The notes below the pieces were generated by a model. That model was given only the letters and a program-made list of their open reading frames with translations. It was not told the DNA's origin and did no database searches. DNA of 64,000 nt. It comes from Stentor roeselii. Taxonomy: Eukaryota; Ciliophora; Heterotrichea; Heterotrichida; Stentoridae. The position numbers and the translations under genes are program-made. Shown here one piece after another: positions 3,121 to 48,679 of the stretch; position 1 is the stretch's first letter, and every line of letters starts with the position of its first letter. The stretch spans positions 62,001 to 126,000 of the forward strand of contig RSEH01000104.1 of assembly GCA_006503475.1 (NCBI GenBank), written 5' to 3'.

Positions 3121-4467
3121 ATGAGTTCGGACTCAGAATCTATGTCTATCAGTCCTCAACCTCAGAATTTTTCTGAAATTAATTGTGATATTCATAGAGA
3201 GGGTATTGAAACGAATGGAATTGATAAAACTGTAACCAGGCAGAGAAGTCGTTCAAGGAGTCCTCCAAGTCTAACTGGGCATTTGAAAGGTAAAAAATTA
3301 TCGAGTCATGGTAGCTCTGTTTCTAGTGATGATATGTTCATCAAAACTCCTGAACCTGCAGAGACTACTGGTCAAGTTAGGATTGGAGGAGAACTGGAAG
3401 ATGCATCAGGCTATTACGTCCCTCAGGTCGGCGAGGTGATTCTAGACAACGAAACCAACTCAAGATTAAAAATCCTCTCAATCCGTGGAAAAGGAGTATT
3501 CTCATGCGTAGTAGAAGTAGAAAACCTAGAAAACTCATCTAAACTCGCCTTAAAACTGCTTCGAAGTTCCGAAATGATGCAAAAATCCGGTGAAAAAGAG
3601 CGAAAAGTCCTTGAAAAATTAAACACCTCTGACCCTTTCGACCACCGTCACATAATCCGTTTATTCGGTTCCTTCATCTACTCAGGCCACTTATGCTTAA
3701 AATACGAGTTAATGTTCATGAGTCTTCGAGAAGTCCTTCAAAAGTTCGGTAATCCAAACGGCCTATCCTTAAAAGCAGTTCAATCCTTTTCTCGTCAAGG
3801 TTTCCTCGCACTGCATCACTTAAAGTTACACAAAATGATCCATTCCGACAGTAACCTTTAATCAGTAAAGCCGGACAACATCTTAATCTGTTCACAACTT
3901 CGGAAAATAAAACTCTCTGACTTTGGCAGCACTTTAGAAGAAGGTGAAAATAAAATCACTGAAAATCTTGTGGCAAGGTATTATCGTCCTCCTGAAATTT
4001 ACCTGGGGTGCCCTTACGACTCTAGTGTCGATGTCTGGAGTTTCGCTTGCACCCTCTTCGAACTCTTCACAGGAAAAGTCCTGTTTCCAGGTAACTCCGA
4101 CTCACATATGATGAAGTTGATTATGGAGGTCAAAGGACCTATTCCGAAAAAAATGAGGACTCAAGGCAAGTTCGTTCAGAAGTTTTTTGAAGACTTTTCT
4201 TTTGTTTATTGTAAAAATGAACTGGAAGGACCTGCTCGAGTACCCTTGTCGGAGTTGAAGAAGGAAAAAAACTTAGGTGTTGCTTTAGAACCGACTTTAA
4301 AGATAGGAATGGCTCAAGGTGCTGAGCAGGACTATGCAAGGGAAGTTCTTTTATTTCAGAACCTGTTGGAACAGTGCCTGGAACTCGACCCAAACGAGAG
4401 AATCACTCCAGACCTCGCATTAAAACATCCTTTTTTAGAAAAAAGACGTAATAATAATGGAAATTGA
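3121..4467 (+). CDS. PRPF4B: PRP4-type splicing kinase, one 15-nt intron
   Basis: Coding parts are 3121-3850 and 3866-4467, giving 443 aa. The N-terminal ~100 residues are disordered and include an RS-like stretch (RQRSRSRSPP). The kinase domain follows: glycine loop RGKGVFS, catalytic loop HSDIKPDNIL (completed only by removing the intron), DFG in LSDFGST, activation segment VARYYRPPE, and FPGNSDSHMMKLIMEVKG, which closely matches the insert of PRP4/PRPF4B kinases (FPG-NNHMLKLAMDLKG). PRP4 phosphorylates tri-snRNP proteins during spliceosome activation in the nucleus. In the catalytic loop the usual HRD/HAD is HSD; the Asp is kept. The stop is TGA and overlaps the next gene by 11 bp. High confidence. 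Confidence 0.93.
3851..3865 (+). other. 15-nt spliceosomal intron
   Basis: GTAACCTTTAATCAG has GT-AG ends and contains an in-frame TAA. Removing it joins HSD-I-KPDNIL, the exact kinase catalytic loop, without a gap. Introns of 15-16 nt are a hallmark of heterotrich ciliates. This is the only intron in the window I can prove by homology. Confidence 0.93.
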
Positions 4468-31130: not shown

Positions 31131-31184
31131 TCTAATCATTCTCCAGGTTTAGCATAATTTTTGAAAAACCTTTCACTTGATTAT
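31131..31184 (-). promoter_or_regulatory. SECIS element of GPX copy 1
   Basis: Read on the minus strand: helix I TAATCA/TGATTA (31178-31183 with 31133-31138), core GTGA (31173-31176) opposite GGAG (31141-31144), helix II AGGTTT/AAACCT (31166-31171 with 31145-31150), and a loop holding the conserved AA 10 nt after the core UGA. This is the form of a eukaryotic selenocysteine insertion element (UGA/GA quartet, apical AA). It starts 5 nt after the stop codon. Confidence 0.82.
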
Positions 31185-31188
31185 TGTT

Positions 31189-31695
31189 TTATAACAGTTC
31201 TTGAATCCTTTCACTCAAACTTAAAGGCCAAACTTTTGGTTCGAAGTACTCGATTTTTTCTGCATCTCGACTGACTAGAAACTTTCCAAAGTTCCAAGTT
31301 ATCCTATTTCCACTCAAGCTGCTTTTTTCCTTGAGAAACTTGAAAAGTTCTGATATTTCCTTACCATTTACATTCACTTTTGAATAAACCGGGAAAGGGA
31401 CTTGAAGACTTTTTACATAATTTTGGATTTCTTCATCTGTTCCTGGCTCTTGACCACCGAACTGATTACAAGGAAAGGCCAAGATTTGAAATCCTTTAGG
31501 ACTGAGAAGATGATGCATTTGGATGAGTTCTGAGTACGATCTTTGAGTTTTTCCTCATTTGGATGCCACATTAGTGATAAGCAAAACTTTTCCAATGAAT
31601 GAAGAAAGTTGTTTCTGCTCACTATTGGCGAGTTTTAGCTGAATATTATAAAAACTTGAAATACATCTGCCTAAAGCCTCGGCAGATCTTATCAT
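31189..31695 (-). CDS. GPX: Selenocysteine glutathione peroxidase, GPX4-like (copy 1)
   Basis: Read through one in-frame TGA (31555-31557), this is a complete 168-aa glutathione peroxidase, the usual length of GPX4-type enzymes. The TGA is residue 47 in TNVASK-U-GKTQRSY, exactly the catalytic selenocysteine site (VNVASQ-U-GKT in animals). The rest of the catalytic tetrad is present: Gln in FPCNQFGGQEPG, and Trp and Asn in TWNFGKFLV. It reduces hydrogen or lipid peroxides with thiols. Start chosen at ATG 31693-31695. A SECIS-like hairpin follows the stop by 5 nt. A paralogue lies next upstream in the same orientation. Confidence 0.9.
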
Positions 31696-31836: not shown

Positions 31837-31890
31837 AACATTAATTCTCCAGTCTTGCCCTAGTTTGAACAAGACCATCACTCGAATATT
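31837..31890 (-). promoter_or_regulatory. SECIS element of GPX copy 2
   Basis: Read on the minus strand: helix I AATATT/AATGTT (31885-31890 with 31837-31842, one wobble), core GTGA (31878-31881) opposite GGAG (31847-31850), helix II GTCTTG/CAAGAC (31870-31875 with 31852-31857), and loop AA 11 nt after the core UGA. Core bases equal those of the copy-1 element while both stems differ in sequence but keep pairing. It starts 3 nt after the stop codon. Confidence 0.82.
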
Positions 31891-31893
31891 GTC

Positions 31894-32394
31894 TTATAAA
31901 ATTTTCCTGATTTTATCCTTGATATCCAAAGGCATGACAGTGGGTCCGAAGTACTCAACTGACTTTTCTTCTCTTCCAATAAGAAACTTTCCAAAATTCC
32001 ATCCGATACTTGATCCCTTCAGTGAACTATTGACTCTCAAGTACTTAAAAAGTTCGCAGGCATTATTTCCATTAACTTCAACCTTTGAAAATACAGGGAA
32101 ATTCCCTCCTTTTTGCCTTACAAAGTTTAAAATTTCTTCATCTTTTCCAGGCTCCTGATTCATGAACTGGTTGCAAGGAAATGCAAGGATTTGAAAACCT
32201 TTTGACTCGAATTCTTTTTCTAGTTGGATAAAATCTGAGTAAGAACGGTTGGTTAGACCTCAGTGAGATGCGACGTTTGTTATCAGCATCACTTTTTCTG
32301 AATATGTTTTAAGTAATGAGGTACCTCCTCCGATTTGGATTACTGGAATCGTGTAGATTGACTTGAAGGAAGTCGAGCATCGCGCCCCTCCCAT
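31894..32394 (-). CDS. GPX: Selenocysteine glutathione peroxidase, GPX4-like (copy 2)
   Basis: A 166-aa glutathione peroxidase interrupted only by TGA at 32260-32262, residue 45 in TNVASH-U-GLTNRSY, the catalytic selenocysteine position. Gln of FPCNQFMNQEPG and the Trp/Asn of GWNFGKFLI complete the tetrad. Start is ATG 32392-32394 (MGGARCSTSF), leaving a short N-terminus without a convincing targeting signal. It is a diverged tandem paralogue of copy 1 with its own SECIS 3 nt beyond the stop. Predicted role: peroxide or lipid-hydroperoxide reduction. Confidence 0.9.
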
Positions 32395-37797: not shown

Positions 37798-38769
37798 ATG
37801 AAAAATTCGATTCGGTATAACTATCGAGAAAGCAACTCTTATTATTCTTACTCTCCTCTTCCTGGAAAAGCTAAACCTTCAAACGGCCCAGTCGTGAACA
37901 CTTTTTACCCGCGAGCCCGGAAGTACAAGTCTCCTGATTCAACTCCGACGACATCTCCTATTCCTTCAAGACAAGTCACAAGTGAAGAGGTCAGTACTTG
38001 TTTTTCTGACCAAAAAGGCAAAAATCAATACTTTTTTAAACAACAACTTTCACTACAAGAGAAAAAAATTCAACATCTTGAAGGAGAAAATAAAAGACTT
38101 GTTAATCAGCATCGTCCTGAGCACTGGGAAAAAGAAATCCTTAGAAAAAACGAGGAAATCTTTAAAATGGAGAACCAGCTTAAGTATTACATGGAACTTG
38201 CTGCTGATAACTCAGATAAAGAAGACTTAGTCACTGAACTTTCCAGAAAAAAAGAAAAAATCACTGAACTTACTGAAAAACTAGAAAAAACATCGAAAAA
38301 TCTAGAAGAATTCGAAGAAAAGTACCTGAAAGTCCTTCGAGAAAATGACCAGTTGAAGGAAGATCAGAGAAAATACTTGAAAAAAGAAGAATGCGATGTT
38401 TTATTGAGACAGATTCAAGAACTTGAAGTCGCTCTTGAGTTACAAGCAAAACAATTCAGAGACGTTCGAGATGAAAATGAAAAATTAAGAAAAGATTCAA
38501 ACGTCTCAAGTTTAAGTTACTTCGCTCAAGACATCAACAAAATCAAGGTAGAAGTTCAAAAACTGCTGATAATCGTTGAAGACTTCGCAAAAGGAAAAGA
38601 AATTTCTTTAAAAGGCCTTCTGGGTATCGAAAATATCAGCAAATTCGAGCCAGTGAAGCAGATTTCAAATGACATCGTGAGTATAAAAAGTGACTTAAAC
38701 CAAGTGCTTAACATTATCACTGACTTTCACGCTGAACAGTCTGCCAACACTGCCTGTAGAACTCAGTGA
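37798..38769 (+). CDS. Coiled-coil protein (323 aa)
   Basis: The N-terminus is disordered and Tyr/Ser/Pro-rich (SNSYYSYSPLPGKAKP). A coiled coil runs from about 75 to 235 (RKKEKITELTEKLEKTSK). The C-terminal ~80 residues are helical (INKIKVEVQKLLIIVEDFAKG). No named family; the layout is like ciliary or basal-body proteins. The stop is TGA; a TAA follows three codons later, so a TGA-as-Trp reading would add only WCY. The next gene begins 18 bp on. Confidence 0.75.
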   Translation: MKNSIRYNYRESNSYYSYSPLPGKAKPSNGPVVNTFYPRARKYKSPDSTPTTSPIPSRQVTSEEVSTCFSDQKGKNQYFFKQQLSLQEKKIQHLEGENKRLVNQHRPEHWEKEILRKNEEIFKMENQLKYYMELAADNSDKEDLVTELSRKKEKITELTEKLEKTSKNLEEFEEKYLKVLRENDQLKEDQRKYLKKEECDVLLRQIQELEVALELQAKQFRDVRDENEKLRKDSNVSSLSYFAQDINKIKVEVQKLLIIVEDFAKGKEISLKGLLGIENISKFEPVKQISNDIVSIKSDLNQVLNIITDFHAEQSANTACRTQ

Positions 38770-47650: not shown

Positions 47651-48679
47651 TCACTCATAACTACTACTTAAAATCTGGTCAATCTCAACCAGTTGTTCCT
47701 TAACATCATTAAATCCAAGTTCAGAGTAGTCAGGTCTGGCAATAGTCAAGTTATTCGAATTTCCATTCCCCGAGTTGACAACAGAATGACCAGCATTGAC
47801 CAGGGGTACAAATTTGCTTTCAAAGCTTAAAGGTTTACTTCCCACAAAATAATCATCAGTCATCCTATTCTCATAATTTTTGAAAGAATTCGAAATATTC
47901 CCCGAAAAATTTCTACTAAACACATTTTTCTGCTGAAACTTCAAATCATAATCAATACTCGACATCCTTAATTGTTCTCTAAACCTGTCTAACTCAATAA
48001 TAGCCTCATTTCTTTCATAATGTGCCTGATCAGCATCTTGTTTAAGTTTTGCCAAAATATTTTTAAATGAATTTTGTTGAATTTCTAAATCGCTTCTTGC
48101 TTTCCAGTAGTCGATTTTCATCGGGTTGAATTCAAGACTGCGAAATTTTTCTTTGTTTTGGACTATCGGGTCGATTTCTTTGATGACAGGAACAGGACTT
48201 TCTTTGTGGACTTCTTGTTTCACTGGCTTCGGCTCGGGTCTTTTGATGGTCTTCGCCTGACGGGGTTCTTCGTAGGGCAGGCCGAGTTCGACTTGGATTT
48301 CTTTTTTGTATTTGGCTTCTAACAAATGACGTTCTTGAGACAGTTTCTCTTCTTCTCGCTTGTCTTCTAGCAGTTTTCGGGTCTTTTCTTCTTGTTTTTT
48401 ACGCTCTTTCTCTTGGACTTGCTCTGAAAGACTTTTACGCCACTCGTCACGCTTCGCATCTCGTAAACGTTGCTGGTCGTCAAAGGTCCAGTTCGCTGAT
48501 GGCTTTAGATTTGAACGGTTTTTTAACTGGGATGCTTCCGGGTTTTCTAAAGGCTTTGATTGGTTTTTAGAGTCGTTGAAATAGTCGAGAGGCTGATCTC
48601 GTGAGTGGCTTTGGAGTGATGAGTTGTTTTGTGGAAGGCTTAGAGATGATTGGTTTGAGAATCGACTTTCAAATTTCAT
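47651..48679 (-). CDS. Hypothetical protein with charged helix (342 aa)
   Basis: The disordered N-terminus is followed at about 68-130 by a long charged helix, RDAKRDEWRKSLSEQVQEK then KEEEKTR/REEEK-like runs, of the kind seen in CSPP1/CCDC66-type centrosome proteins; this likeness is pattern-level only. A second coiled coil lies near 200-240 (NILAKLKQDADQAHYE). The tail is Ser/Asn-rich with acidic ends. Upstream lies the phased 10-bp repeat, so that repeat may be part of its promoter. Confidence 0.68.
   Translation of the reverse strand: MKFESRFSNQSSLSLPQNNSSLQSHSRDQPLDYFNDSKNQSKPLENPEASQLKNRSNLKPSANWTFDDQQRLRDAKRDEWRKSLSEQVQEKERKKQEEKTRKLLEDKREEEKLSQERHLLEAKYKKEIQVELGLPYEEPRQAKTIKRPEPKPVKQEVHKESPVPVIKEIDPIVQNKEKFRSLEFNPMKIDYWKARSDLEIQQNSFKNILAKLKQDADQAHYERNEAIIELDRFREQLRMSSIDYDLKFQQKNVFSRNFSGNISNSFKNYENRMTDDYFVGSKPLSFESKFVPLVNAGHSVVNSGNGNSNNLTIARPDYSELGFNDVKEQLVEIDQILSSSYE

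Follow-up and report, generated by a model that had tools for sequence, protein, structure and literature searches.

A GPX4-like glutathione peroxidase gene of Stentor roeselii with a probable selenocysteine codon and a candidate SECIS hairpin

A tandem pair of glutathione peroxidase genes and its paralogues

The window, the whole stretch of 64,000 nucleotides analysed here (C9:62001-126000 of a genome of 44.4 Mb in 522 contigs), contains two glutathione peroxidase (GPX) genes in tandem. The earlier note had placed a GPX at 31189-31695; the interval is right, and the gene lies on the minus strand, which that note had left out. No open frame is present on the plus strand of the same interval. 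The features of the pair are given below, selenocysteine being abbreviated as Sec.

31189..31695, minus strand: GPX copy 1, 168 aa, predicted Sec at residue 47, TAA stop at 31189-31191 (translation; PF00255 E 1.3e-33; PDB 2p5q E 1.6e-39)
31555..31557, minus strand: TGA codon 47, at the catalytic position, predicted to be read as Sec (translation, paralogue alignment, pairwise substitution pattern)
31516..31518, minus strand: internal ATG, codon 60, where an ordinary annotation would start a truncated protein of 109 aa (109-aa P0002)
31136..31185, minus strand: SECIS-like element of GPX copy 1, GUGA core 12 nt after TAA (model R1 50.3 bits, E 3.1e-10; training member)
31894..32394, minus strand: GPX copy 2, 166 aa, predicted Sec at residue 45, TAA stop, N-terminus MGGARC
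32260..32262, minus strand: TGA codon 45 of GPX copy 2
31842..31890, minus strand: SECIS-like element of GPX copy 2 (model R1 52.2 bits, E 1e-10; training member; fold z -2.63)

Translation of the minus strand from 31695 down to 31189 gives a frame of 168 codons with a single in-frame TGA, set in the motif TNVASK-U-GKT exactly as had been claimed. The product covers the whole GSHPx domain (PF00255 positions 1-108 of 108, 115 bits) and matches 41 PDB sequences, of which 2p5q is the best, while the GPX4 entries are matched at about E 1e-33. A Cys stands opposite residue 47 in both PDB alignments inspected and the paralogues carry the TGA in one column, which bears out its assignment to the GPX catalytic position. 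In mammalian GPX4 the catalytic Sec lies in NVASxUG and acts with Gln, Trp and Asn. Copy 1 resembles it in both the catalytic motif and these partners, having Gln82, Trp134 and Asn135, which we take to be the tetrad residues from their positions in GPX4; the description of an otherwise intact 168-aa enzyme is accurate.

Searching the genome with PF00255 yielded nine matches from 10 candidates. Exactly one in-frame TGA is found in each of the nine and always in the same alignment column, and for this reason the TGA of copy 1 is not a chance event. The paralogues share 38-77% identity in pairwise comparison; eight of them are paired in tandem on C9, C15, C60 and C310, and the one on C12 stands alone. 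Two of these loci are referred to repeatedly.

C15:28833-29156 and C15:29523-29846, matches within L007 (G000:C15:28023-31346): tandem GPX pair with MGNCLCCC start
G000:C60:58900-60500 (L017): ninth GPX copy, with a frame break yet an intact SECIS-like element

All eight unbroken copies stop at TAA. In the ninth, which neighbours C60_1, the frame breaks in mid-gene after an FQS stretch, and this copy is either a pseudogene or an assembly error. In five of five GPX pairs compared, the TGA codons align and the changes downstream of them fall mostly at third codon positions. Past the TGA, the C15 pair differs by 19, 15 and 50 of 121 according to codon position, with a dN of 0.14 against a dS of 1.38, although dS is saturated or incalculable in some of the five pairs. 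The tetrad U/Q/W/N, its positions taken from GPX4, is complete in five of the eight unbroken copies; Arg replaces the tetrad Gln in C310_2, and in both C15 copies Arg replaces Gln and Leu replaces Trp while the putative Sec is kept. Seven of the nine copies, including copy 2, start with Met-Gly, followed at residue 6 by Ser, Thr or Cys, a start that is missing from copy 1 and from the broken ninth copy. This arrangement resembles the N-myristoylation site motif, and it suggests that the seven may be N-myristoylated, membrane-bound selenoperoxidases.

A conserved hairpin and the selenocysteine machinery

Directly 3' of the stop codons of eight GPX genes and of the SPS2 gene is a hairpin with the layout helix, UGA/GA core, helix and apical AA, the UGA/GA quartet lying between the two helices. 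GUGA, the two adenines of the apical loop and GAG are invariant in all nine aligned elements, and GUGA and GAG recur in both held-out elements, those of the ninth GPX copy and of a thioredoxin reductase gene; a SECIS-like element lies behind each of the nine GPX genes. The distance from the stop to the start of GUGA is 12 nt in eight of the nine aligned elements and 13 nt in one. A manual count puts it at 13 nt behind the ninth GPX gene too. In thioredoxin reductase the core lies 35 nt after the stop and, again counted manually, about 41 nt after the UGA.

The structure was drawn by hand, and 88.9% of cells pair in the nine-sequence alignment. Changes on both sides were found in 11 of 12 base pairs (shuffled mean 6.4; one of 500 shuffles as high) and in 28 cells (shuffled mean 9.5; none of 500 as high), with covariation in both helices. 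With the partners slid by one base the covariation score, 0.82 for the structure as drawn, is at most 0.26, a control that favours the structure because it was drawn on these same nine sequences; the held-out test is free of such bias. In that test a covariance model, R1, built from the nine elements (eight GPX, SPS2), scored the element of the ninth GPX copy, which is closely paralogous to one row of the training set, at 41.5 bits and that of thioredoxin reductase at 32.8 bits. On 95,445 bases of 29 loci, some of which overlap, 15 of the 20 R1 hits reach at least 32.8 bits and correspond to the 11 elements, the other five scoring 18.4 or less. Within the window, the two GPX elements (52.2 and 50.3) are followed by a next best score of 17.4. 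Folded alone, the thioredoxin reductase element, which is not in the training set, adopts the whole two-helix shape. Fold z scores lie between -2.4 and -2.9 for the elements of copy 2, the ninth GPX copy and thioredoxin reductase and reach -1.64 for SPS2, and that of copy 1 is -0.44, no more stable than its shuffles.

The eukaryotic SECIS type I core is given as UGAN/KGAW in the accessible text of PMC7409322. The hairpin is like type I in its UGAN 5' core, its apical adenines and its two helices around a non-standard quartet. It departs from type I in three respects: all 11 elements have KGAG as the 3' part of their core and none has the KGAW that this source treats as canonical; only 12-13 nt separate it from the GPX and SPS2 stop codons; and it gives no Rfam match. 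At the gathering score Rfam reported no SECIS in the window, and at E up to 10 on seven loci, which together contained the SPS2 element and every one of the nine GPX elements and left aside the thioredoxin reductase locus, no SECIS was among the nine matches. The new part, on the sequence evidence, is this candidate heterotrich SECIS with the core UGAN/KGAG, located 12-13 nt downstream of the GPX and SPS2 stop codons. A literature search found no description of heterotrich GPX SECIS elements, which is weak evidence of absence as subscription papers were mostly out of reach.

The gene content bears on the claim that a working Sec insertion machinery exists in this ciliate. A tRNA-Sec gene, whose absence had been named beforehand as refuting a Sec reading, was found with 64 bits against a gathering score of 47 and the anticodon TCA; four other matches are tRNA-Ser and tRNA-Leu. 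SepSecS is present (388 bits), and its frame reads V-I-E-N-stop (GTN ATH GAR AAY TAG), which by eye fits a 15-nt intron. The eEFSec gene, named in the same refuting condition, is likewise present; it has both eEFSec-specific Pfam domains and matches PDB eEFSec at E 1.2e-116. SPS2 (220 bits) carries a TGA at the usual Sec site, KG-TGA-GCK. The L7Ae profile has nine matches, the weakest of which, L042, matches SECIS Binding Protein 2 (7zjw_B) at E 3e-22. In addition, a thioredoxin reductase (L019, G000:C365; 653 bits) ends GC-TGA-G-stop, with the TGA at the usual Sec site.

PSTK, which the earlier note had also listed for searching, was not found in the genome, and an intron-split gene with tiny introns could escape the search. 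The best PSTK match, L031, is KTI12 by domain scan; L044, which ranks second among the KTI12 matches, resembles an adenylate-kinase-type protein on visual inspection. The genes for tRNA-Sec, SepSecS, eEFSec, SBP2 and SPS2, together with the hairpin, thus support the claimed machinery, PSTK apart, and suggest that it may be a working one. The selenoproteins counted here are a minimum, limited by the choice of families searched. No TGA is present in the 11 matches to PF10262 (SelW/SelT-like), nine of which are over the cut-off. These matches are distributed over L023-L030 and three further places, and nine of the eleven lie inside frames of at least 249 codons.

Sec might be inserted while the conserved hairpin is not the SECIS, another, undetected element driving the recoding. 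The lack of an Rfam SECIS match would fit such an arrangement, as would the eleven ciliate Sec-GPX for which no SECIS was detectable according to the accessible text of PMC7409322. We nevertheless judge it very improbable, given that the hairpin has the SECIS layout, is common to three unrelated gene families, and was found by R1 in thioredoxin reductase with no training on that gene.

TGA as stop, tryptophan or selenocysteine

Stop codons were counted in 88 ORFs of at least 200 codons and lacking the intron signature, from loci L001-L042 (except L004, L005, L006 and L008) and the window, some of which may lie antisense or be truncated where a locus ends. TAA ends 48 of them, TAG 26 and TGA 14, one of these 14 being the thioredoxin reductase Sec codon. 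For S. coeruleus, the accessible part of PMC6879139 gives 60, 31 and 9% for TAA, TAG and TGA. In six control genes all 16 Trp codons counted are TGG, and TGA never occurs in frame. Inside domain matches, TGA was met only in GPX (9/9), SPS2 (1/1) and one thioredoxin reductase; matches to seven other families searched by protein have none, nor do the other three thioredoxin-reductase-family matches. Moreover, no TGA was seen at conserved Trp positions of ordinary genes among those examined. The view that TGA is not a general Trp codon is upheld by its use at the ends of ordinary ORFs, by TGG in the control genes and by its restriction within domains to Sec families.

Pfam was applied to nine of 28 TGA-ending frames and to two more window ORFs ending in TGA. 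A domain is present in four of the nine and reaches the last third in two, namely the kinase that precedes window position 4465 and a DHHC protein of L029; of the two extra ORFs, one is domainless and one has a weak coiled-coil match. A conserved C-terminal end at TGA was not rigorously demonstrated in any of these 9 + 2 frames. The example given for TGA as a normal stop, a kinase frame that the earlier note named PRP4 and that ends at 4465-4467, is plausible, since 200 residues precede this TGA and the kinase domain extends as far as residue 191, but the ATG of the next ORF at 4457 overlaps.

This kinase frame overlaps the ATG of the next ORF, which is on the same strand, by 11 bases (window 4457-4467), and TAATAATAA lies just upstream in a different frame. 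Both window ORFs of at least 200 aa that were counted as ending in TGA, at 37798-38769 and 47651-48679, have an in-frame TAA three codons on.

The eRF1 gene (L033:1453-2760) encodes KAANIKS where human eRF1 has TASNIKS. The protein is 87% identical to that of S. coeruleus, 71% to that of Blepharisma stoltei and 94% to an environmental protein, values that mark the organism as a relative of known Stentor and probably a species other than S. coeruleus. KAANIKS is common to the S. coeruleus protein and environmental relatives; in B. stoltei, one copy reads KSSNIKS and another SATSIKS. As S. coeruleus shares the motif, KAANIKS was set aside as a sign of a changing code.

Public relatives of these genes appear to carry two kinds of error. 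P0002, named glutathione peroxidase and 109 aa long, comes from a JGI metagenome; it is 98% identical to GPX copy 1 and is evidently a gene of a close relative truncated in the same way. It is the counterpart of the 109-aa call that had been predicted from the ATG at 31518. P0002, and likewise P0007 and P0008 (112 aa each), begin after the Sec column, from which we infer truncation at the TGA. P0003, P0004 and P0012 have Trp in this column, apparently through rote translation of TGA and falsely so at an active site. The practical consequence is that public databases hold relatives of such genes truncated at an internal ATG or with an apparent false Trp.

In some heterotrichs (Condylostoma, some Blepharisma) TGA is known to encode Trp. 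Were it a general Trp codon in this genome, residue 47 would be Trp, as it is in P0003, P0004 and P0012, and the divergence of KAANIKS from human TASNIKS might be read in the same way. This is extremely unlikely. The Trp of the three public proteins is most simply a gene caller's mechanical translation, and Trp would abolish the peroxidatic residue; TGG encodes Trp in the eight unbroken GPX copies; in-domain TGA is confined to GPX, SPS2 and one thioredoxin reductase and is absent from seven other families; and ordinary ORFs end in TGA. KAANIKS is also found in S. coeruleus, where UGA is the stop codon of about 9% of genes (PMC6879139).

That the TGA is a premature stop, leaving a short peptide, a pseudogene or a restart at the internal ATG, is scarcely credible: the public calls of 109 aa (P0002) and 112 aa (P0007, P0008) and the frame break of the ninth copy could be cited for it, but nine paralogues that are only 38-77% identical share this TGA, sequence on both sides of it is constrained, a SECIS-like element lies behind every copy, and the 109-aa product would be without the catalytic residue.

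Proposed decoding and relation to known systems

Since a matching RNA signal and most of the Sec machinery are present, TGA codon 47 is read here as Sec. GPX copy 1 is almost certainly a GPX4-like selenoperoxidase in which a SECIS directs Sec to this codon, and Sec is by far the most likely identity of residue 47 on the evidence of the genome. In the proposed sequence of events, the ribosome would reach the UGA at codon 47 of the GPX mRNA, and a SECIS hairpin predicted to form in the 3' UTR, starting a few bases past the TAA, would be bound by SBP2. SBP2 would bring eEFSec with Sec-tRNA(UCA), Sec would be inserted in place of termination, and translation would stop at the TAA. The Sec would then serve as the peroxidatic centre together with Gln82, Trp134 and Asn135 in an enzyme of predicted peroxidase activity. 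Several points count against this explanation: the hairpin is so near the stop that a ribosome terminating there should cover part of it, PSTK was not found, Rfam gave no SECIS match, and the copy-1 hairpin is unremarkable in stability. Compared with mammalian GPX4, the family is distinguished by the myristoylation-like start of seven of its nine members and by a SECIS-like element directly at the stop codon.

Sec in the GPX of S. coeruleus was published in 2020, so that GPX copy 1 joins a known kind of gene and the form of the SECIS is the part worth following. In the accessible text of PMC7409322 (2020), all seven GPX of S. coeruleus carry Sec and three have incomplete tetrads. The family described here is likewise a heterotrich one in which every member would carry Sec and three have incomplete tetrads, with nine copies in place of seven. 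SteGPx6 of S. coeruleus has a Cys two residues before the catalytic one, as does the C15 pair (VACK-U). The same text reports that SECIS were undetected in eleven ciliate Sec-GPX and that tRNA-Sec was not found in S. coeruleus, whereas SECIS-like elements and tRNA-Sec are both found here; the accessible part of PMC6879139, citing Slabodnick 2017, states that S. coeruleus has a Sec tRNA. The Stentor lineage has a GPX family composed entirely of selenoproteins, for which SECIS-like elements, tRNA-Sec, eEFSec and SBP2 had been the missing parts; their presence in this genome offers an answer to the 'missing SECIS' anomaly printed in 2020. R1 can be used for testing other ciliate genomes.

A broader proposal, to which we would give an even chance, is that Stentor-type heterotrichs have a clade-specific SECIS (UGAN/KGAG, at a fixed 12-13 nt from the stop codon in the mRNAs of GPX and SPS2) that escapes standard detectors. 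Such a SECIS would also lie behind the GPX genes of S. coeruleus and account for the 'missing SECIS' of ciliate Sec-GPX. The selenoperoxidases that it serves would be lipid-anchored, and some, without the tetrad Gln and Trp, may carry out different Sec chemistry.

In Condylostoma magnum, tRNA-Sec(UCA) and SECIS are described in the accessible text of Swart 2016 (PMC4967479). The present species resembles this heterotrich in its tRNA-Sec(UCA) and in a thioredoxin reductase with a penultimate UGA close before the SECIS; it differs in that UGA, which in C. magnum also serves as Trp and stop, was found only as stop or Sec. The same source cites a UGA-SECIS distance of 51-111 nt. The roughly 41 nt that separate UGA and core in the thioredoxin reductase described here fall below that range, and a similarly short distance is reported there for C. 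magnum.
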